A stretch of DNA of 64,000 nucleotides. Origin: Candidatus Altimarinota bacterium (GTDB lineage Bacteria > Patescibacteriota > Gracilibacteria > UBA4473). How positions within the stretch are numbered: position 1 is the first letter of the stretch; each line of letters begins with the position of its first letter. Below, in pieces: positions 55,856-57,342 of this stretch. The notes under the pieces are model-generated. The model was not told the DNA's origin. It saw only the letters and a list, made by a program, of their open reading frames with translations, and did no database searches. The DNA lies in assembly GCA_023143095.1 (NCBI GenBank), contig JAGLIF010000006.1, forward strand, positions 1 to 64,000. Direction: 5' to 3'. Both the position numbers and the translations under genes were made by a program.

Positions 55856-57342
55856 ACGAGGCGATTTTCCATCCGCACATTCCCGTACGGATACCTTGTT
55901 ACGACTTAAGCCCAGTCATTGGTTTCACCTTAGGCCACGATTATTTCGCAGACTTCGGGCGCCCCCAACTCCCATGCCTTGACGGGCGGTGAGTACAAGA
56001 CCCAGGAACATATTCACCGTGCCATGACTGATACACGGTTACTAGCGATTCCAACTTCATGTGATCGAGTTTCAGATCACAATCCGAACTGAGAGTAGTT
56101 TTTTCCGATTGGCTCCACGTTACCGCTTCGCTTCAGTTTGTACTACCCATTGTAACACGGGTGTAGCCCCAGACATAAAGGCCATGCTGATTTGACGTCA
56201 TCCTCACCTTCCTCCCGGTTATACCGGGCAGTCTCGCATGAAAATACAACATACGACGAGGGTTGCGCTCGTTAACGGACTTAACCGAACACCTCAAGGC
56301 ACGAGCTGACGACAACCATGCAGCGCCTGTCACTAATCCAGCCGAACTGACTCTCTCATTTCTGAAAAATACGATTAGGATGTCAAGTCTGGGTAAGGTT
56401 ACTCGCTTATTGACGAATTAAACCCCATGTTCCACCGCTTGTGTGGGTCCCCGTCTATTCCTTTGTGTTTTAATCTTGCGATCGTACTACACAGGCGGCT
56501 AACTTAACGGGTTACCTTAGGCACAGAGACCAGGTCGAGGGTCCCTACACCGAGTTAGCATCGTTTACGGCGTGGACTACAGGGGTATCTAATCCCTTTT
56601 GCTCCCCACGCTTTCGTCCCTGAGTGTCAGGATTGGTCCAGTATACTGCCTTCGCTTTTGGTGTTCCTCTGCATATCTACGGATTTTACCCCTACTTGCA
56701 GAATTCCATATACCTCTACCATCCTCTAGCACAGAAGTTTCAATTACAGCACCGATGTTGAGCATCGGTATTTAATAACTGACTTTCTGCGCCACCTGCG
56801 GACGCTTTACGCCCAATAATTCCGGGTAACGCTCGGACCTTACGTATTACCGCGGCTGCTGGCACGTAATTAGCCGGTCCTTATTCCTATGGTACCGTCA
56901 GATCTTCTTCCCATAGAAAAGGTGTTTACGACCCATAGGCCTTCATCCACCACGCGGTGTCGCTCCGTCAGGCTTTCGCCCATTGCGGAAGATTCCTTAC
57001 TGCTGCCTCCCGTAGGAGTATGGGCCGTGTCTCAGTCCCATCGCGGCTGGTCATGCTCTCACACCAGCTATCCGTCATAGTCTTGGTAGGCCATTACCCC
57101 ACCAACAAACTGATAGTCCGCAAGCACCTCCCGTACCGCAAAAGCTTTACTCTTTCGAGGCTATCCGGTATTAGCTCGGCTTTCACCGAGTTATCCCTGA
57201 GTACGGGGTAGTTTCTTACGTGTTACTCGCTCGTCCGCCGCTTTCAAAACCCCAAGTAAACTTAAGGTTTGTCTCGCTCGACTTGCATGTATTAGGCGCA
57301 CCGCCAGCGTTCACCCTGAGCCAGGATCAAACTCTTCGTAAA
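55856..57342 (-). rRNA. rrs: 16S ribosomal RNA
   Basis: A full-length small-subunit rRNA of about 1,490 nt on the minus strand. In plus-strand form, the 5' end shows the complement of AGAGTTTGATCCTGG at 57321-57335. Universal regions include ACCGCGGCTGCTGGCAC (about 56850), ACTACAGGGGTATCTAATCC (about 56577), GACGGGCGGTGAGTACAAG (about 55981) and TACCTTGTTACGACTT (about 55892). Helix 45 is intact (CCGUAC/GUGCGG around GGGAAU). The 3' end is unusual: after GGAUGGA the RNA continues AAAUCGCCUCGUCC instead of UCACCUCCUUU, so the anti-Shine-Dalgarno core CCUCC is absent. The exact 3' end is my estimate. The 920-nt universal site differs from the usual sequence. Confidence 0.97.

Follow-up and report, generated by a model that had tools for sequence, protein, structure and literature searches.

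Loss of the CCUCC anti-Shine-Dalgarno core, and a 16S tail-trailer hairpin probably kept for ribosome manufacture, in a family of Candidatus Gracilibacteria

One family of tiny, uncultured bacteria within the NCBI class Candidatus Gracilibacteria (here f1) seems to make no use of Shine-Dalgarno (SD) pairing, and the part of its altered anti-SD region that selection still sees seems to be a hairpin formed between the tail of 16S rRNA and the trailer of its precursor. Few strings in bacteria are as conserved as the anti-SD core CCUCC, which is usually taken for a signal of mRNA selection and nothing else. The family member studied here (G000) is the source of our window, by which we mean the whole stretch of 64,000 nucleotides that was analysed. 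In this genome CCUCC has been lost from the 16S gene, and the loss is real and not an assembly error.

An altered tail on a single 16S gene

The 16S rRNA gene lies at 55857..57342 on the minus strand, fits the Rfam bacterial SSU model from end to end (1448 bits), and is the sole rrs copy of a 1.2-Mb, 97%-complete genome, of which 1.194 of 1.207 Mb entered the analysis; a search for a second intact copy found none. Helix 45 is intact as CCGUAC-GGGAAU-GUGCGG (55873..55890, minus strand), just as the initial annotation of this DNA had described it. From 55871 to 55841 the minus strand reads UGGA AAA UCGCC UCGUCCA GAGGC UCAAAGG. The anti-SD core position (55860..55864, minus strand) is thus occupied by UCGCC, in which the central U has become G, and the annotated absence of CCUCC from the tail is borne out. 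The letters CCUC still occur in the tail, shifted about 3 nt in the 3′ direction within GCCUCG.

No match to 23S rRNA was found in the 97%-complete assembly, despite the intact 16S gene. Similarly, no LSU or 5S gene was detected in 20-kb tiles around rrs of the relatives G006, G010 and G018; 16S is unlinked to 23S and 5S in these three f1 members, the ones checked. A non-exhaustive duplex search over 90 nt per side gave no leader-trailer RNase III helix above the level of shuffled sequence. Between aroB and the 3′ end of 16S, positions 55365-55666 of the window hold three 102-bp tandem repeats (96% match) that contain the inverted repeats CCCGTTCTTGAAACGGG and ATCCCTGCGAAGGCAGGGAT; the ORF called at 55347-55700, which overlaps these repeats, is probably spurious.

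The same type of tail recurs in independently assembled relatives, a result that excludes an assembly error; a comparison with sister genomes had been among the checks proposed in the initial annotation. Among the 20 f1 genomes sampled the tail was readable in 17, and 14 of these carry a C/U-C/U-GCC (YYGCC) core, including G018 with CCGCC; CCUCC is found in three of the 17, all from genus g11. Scanning 84,980 species for YYGCC after helix 45 returned 12 records, DOLZORAL124_38_8 among them, and all correspond to f1 genomes. In a 16S tree built without helix 45 and the tail, f1 grouped at full support with the CCUCC-bearing G010 nested inside it, which implies either two losses of CCUCC or a single loss followed by a return to it. 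Elsewhere in the class the core varies freely (UCUCC, CUUCC, UUUCC, CCUCU and UUCCC), and all 28 sampled members of the phylum outside the class have CCUCC, most of them together with the hairpin described below.

A hairpin between tail and trailer

The segments GCCUC (55862-55858) and GAGGC (55852-55848) can pair around the loop GUCCA to give a hairpin at 55848..55862 on the minus strand. The 5-bp stem and its loop had been correctly annotated; the structure folds at −9.2 kcal/mol, and 2 of 200 dinucleotide shuffles folded equally well. The initial annotation, which spanned 55856-55900, took the hairpin to stand in place of the anti-SD. The hairpin does form at that site, but its 3′ arm lies just beyond this interval and beyond the Rfam 3′ end of 16S (55857), in the trailer, and it replaces nothing: relatives with CCUCC fold the homologous hairpin from a CUCC arm and a trailer GGAG, which points to an ancestral pre-rRNA feature and not to a stand-in for the anti-SD. 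The f1 hairpin shares its position, arms and loop range with the CCUCC-type hairpin of the phylum (CCUCCUUUCUAGGGAG and similar) and differs from it in that the 5′ arm is GCCU(C), not CUCC, with the trailer altered to match.

In 121 of the 147 class tails, core positions 7-8 take part in a stem of 4 bp or more, compared with 15 when the trailer was shuffled. Most CCUCC tails of the class read CUCC...GGAG and take the same fold; the hairpin is absent from family f14 and from most of f21. Across class tails, core position 6 is paired as U-A (89), G-C (14) or C-G (3), position 5 as C-G (72) or U-A (24), and position 8 as C-G or U-A. Pair counts were made on family f5 and on equal-length f1 sets, since differing loop lengths made a mixed-family MAFFT alignment unusable. 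In f5, where loop length is fixed, 6 of the 19 distinct rows show a switch of the outer pair from U-A to C-G, a score that none of 500 shuffles matched; slid controls were lower. All cells of the equal-length f1 set were paired (45/45, 100%). The double change at position 6 in this set (U-A/G-C) amounts to one event, and covariation within f1 alone was reached by 64 of 500 shuffles and is not significant. Outside this set, G001 (GCCA..UGGC) carries a further compensated pair. At the level of the class, the stem between the anti-SD core and the trailer is kept by covariation.

Judged from these comparisons, the hairpin is an old pre-rRNA feature of the class and the phylum that f1 has apparently kept through compensatory changes. 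It probably serves a job other than SD pairing, in ribosome manufacture, and we infer that it is retained for pre-16S processing or assembly. Further into the trailer (55803..55840, minus strand), a possible second hairpin, GCUCC...GGAGC, was picked out by eye and carries no statistics; it seems to covary among f1 members, with GCUCC/GGAGC in G000 and GCUUCA/UGAAGC in G002.

SD motifs are at background

The genes of the window had been annotated as nearly devoid of SD sites, and an AGGA, GGAG or GAGG 4-mer was indeed found for 2 of its 43 called genes. The genome-wide count confirmed this scarcity, with these 4-mers at −20..−4 in 4.0% of 881 G000 genes and in 3.1 ± 0.5% after shuffling. Scoring by RNAduplex at ≤ −6 kcal/mol gave 2.2% versus 1.7%, and GGAGG is rarer upstream of G000 starts than its genomic density predicts (3 versus 9.7). 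Each start was set at the first ATG in frame, a rule under which weak signals become blurred; the same pipeline returned 42% versus 17% for E. coli and 44% versus 12.5% for AT-rich T4 DNA as positive controls.

SD counts were made in five genomes of the class. SD was also at background in G010, an f1 member, and in G043, from the same class, both of which bear CCUCC. Given that these CCUCC relatives are equally without SD, the altered tail appears to be a consequence and not a cause. The annotated proposal that the lineage initiates without an anti-SD holds insofar as no SD pairing is seen, but not insofar as it makes the altered tail responsible; probably SD use was lost first and the anti-SD drifted after. 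In G018 a mild excess of SD motifs was observed (10.2% versus 7.2 ± 1.2%). About six genes of this genome (loci L103-L122), several with secretion-signal-like N termini, have AGGAGG-type sites just before the ATG, often after AACAAA, and one G000 gene (C5:163270) resembles them. The sites in G018 possibly reflect recent transfer or a non-SD motif.

Upstream signals at gene starts

Of the 586 G000 genes that are likely first in their transcription units, 10.8% have a −10-like hexamer at −16..−13, compared with an upstream background of about 3.3% (p ~6e-16); the share at this peak is 18.7% in G006. A second −10 peak is present near −32 in G000. With a −10 box some 14 nt ahead of the ATG, transcripts are predicted to begin at or near the start codon (leaderless transcripts), and the peak near −32 predicts short leaders of roughly 20 nt. 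Of 201 operonic genes, 132 have A at −3, and G is depleted from about −16 on. From these upstream patterns, initiation would take place on leaderless transcripts or on short A-rich leaders. IF3, bS1, bS6, bS18 and RsmA/KsgA (the last by tblastn) are present in G000; a PF01165 search for bS21 gave no match in G000 and weak, very divergent matches in 11 of 20 f1 genomes.

Maturation factors of the 16S 3′ end

Neither the 20 f1 genomes nor the f5 genomes with a scored tail yielded YbeY, an endonuclease implicated in 16S 3′-end maturation (PMC5101352). Full-length Era was not found in f1 either, where the matches were Der-like frames; that Era is missing from most CPR bacteria was already known (PMC10582724). 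Of the class genomes, 35 of the 60 that lack YbeY have something other than CU at core positions 5-6, as do 2 of the 77 that have YbeY; these genome counts overstate the association, the core changes falling in few families. The sampled genomes of families f7, f10 and f15 have no YbeY and keep the central CU. At the family level the association is weak, and that the loss of YbeY brought about the drift of the anti-SD is put forward as a suggestion only. Conserved genes of f10, f12, f14, f20 and part of f21 contain in-frame TGA, in keeping with the TGA-as-sense code known in Gracilibacteria/Absconditabacteria, whereas G000 uses TGA as a stop.

Discussion

Loss of the anti-SD in other lineages is already known, and the annotated premise that CCUCC is nearly universal needs qualification: the available text of PMC6107228 and PMC10783764 records its loss in other phyla and in other CPR lineages. 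The former gives 128 taxa without CCUCC and, in the survey as far as that text goes, no organism in which a changed anti-SD is matched perfectly by an SD that has changed as well. The f1 case agrees, having an altered anti-SD and no matching SD. Category iv of PMC10783764 (SD-scarce, no CCUCC) includes, in the available text, Absconditabacteria SR1, Peribacter, Campbellbacteria, Wolfebacteria and Flavobacteriia, with SD scarcity set at fewer than 5.5% of genes by RNAhybrid. Like such organisms, f1 has no CCUCC after helix 45, an SD frequency near background (by a method that differs from that of PMC10783764), and no alternative SD complementary to its tail. Unlike the organisms named in the available text of the two papers, among which f1 does not figure, it has a C/U-C/U-GCC core, and that text makes no mention of a compensated tail-trailer hairpin in those organisms. 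As far as this literature shows, the f1-wide YYGCC core, the class-wide compensated hairpin and the co-occurrence with YbeY loss are new.

Other modes of initiation share some of these properties. In Flavobacterium, A at −3 is the main positive determinant (PMC6847099), and f1 has in common with this Kozak-like initiation of Bacteroidetes both the lack of SD and the preference for A at −3. According to the available text of PMC10783764, Bacteroidetes usually retain the anti-SD and hide it behind bS21, bS18 and bS6, whereas the f1 core itself is mutated. G000 does not have a masked anti-SD of this type: CCUCC is absent and bS21 was undetected, with bS6 and bS18 present. As in leaderless lineages (archaea, many bacteria), a −10 element stands about 7-14 nt before the start in many genes, the shared feature being the box about 14 nt before the ATG; G000 differs in that the signal is seen in part of the genes only and is accompanied by the peak near −32.

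We consider it likely that SD selection was abandoned, that genes start leaderless or on short A-rich leaders, that the anti-SD has drifted, and that the hairpin is held as a precursor feature. SD-based mRNA selection would have been given up in the class, probably early. Initiation would rely on leaderless transcripts and on leaders that are short, rich in A and poor in G, with A at −3; the signatures of both are seen upstream of genes, and their driving role is presumed from them. The anti-SD core would then have been free to drift, to C/U-C/U-GCC in f1, and the distribution of cores is consistent with relaxed selection. Selection would still hold the tail-trailer hairpin, in which the U to G change of the core is matched by an A to C change in the trailer. 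This hairpin may mark or protect the 3′ end while the 30S subunit is assembled and be trimmed later. YbeY and Era act on the 16S 3′ tail elsewhere, and the loss of YbeY, plus that of Era in G000, may have lifted a further constraint on the letters of CCUCC. Taken as a whole, the initial interpretation is partly supported.

The hairpin could instead persist in mature 16S as an extra helix at its end, obstructing or shaping the site where the mRNA exits, similar in effect to the masking in Bacteroidetes. We regard this as rather unlikely. Compensation of the hairpin after the loss of CCUCC fits such a role, and with no YbeY in any f1 genome the usual 3′ trimming may differ; but the same hairpin accompanies CCUCC tails phylum-wide with its 3′ arm past the mature end by homology, and the Rfam 3′ end of 16S falls within the hairpin loop. 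It is very improbable that f1 uses a private, shifted SD code in which GGCG or GAGGCG of the mRNA pairs with GCCUC/CCGCC. The CCUC that survives 3 nt downstream could pair with GAGG if this stretch were free, but upstream pairing with the organism's own tail at ≤ −6 kcal/mol is 2.0% versus 1.8% shuffled in G000 and hardly more in G006 (3.5% versus 2.3%), and G018, with 9.9% versus 7.2% at ≤ −6, falls below shuffled at ≤ −8. Positional composition shows no G-rich peak, and a k-mer search yields mainly A/T-rich and −10-like motifs. An orthogonal or shifted SD is largely refuted by this lack of enrichment. It is scarcely plausible that the hairpin terminates transcription or folds by mere chance: transcription could stop near a 16S gene that has no adjoining 23S, as in the three relatives checked, but GAGGC is followed by UCAAAGGUACG and not by the U run of an intrinsic terminator, and the covariation and the fixed position in 121 of 147 tails argue against both. 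It is hardly credible that the sequence was misassembled or misread, or that this gene is a pseudogene and a normal rrs lies elsewhere, for even though the draft is in 11 contigs and lacks a detectable 23S, its one rrs scores 1448 bits and the same tail type occurs in more than 10 independent assemblies.

On the preferred reading, of a hairpin held as a precursor feature after SD selection had been abandoned, SD selection is gone in the genomes tested, yet trailer pairing by the same nucleotides still looks selected. Two normally confounded constraints on CCUCC, mRNA selection and trailer pairing, are separated in these organisms. They make it a testable proposition that anti-SD conservation stems in part from pre-rRNA maturation, and their genomes, which differ naturally in the presence of CCUCC, YbeY and Era, lend themselves to studies of SD-independent initiation. 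More tentatively, we raise the possibility that the anti-SD doubles as an arm of a maturation hairpin, and that this would be its sole remaining role in Gracilibacteria, where the letters drift and the helix is kept; in f1 the helix might even be retained in mature 30S subunits as an added terminal helix.
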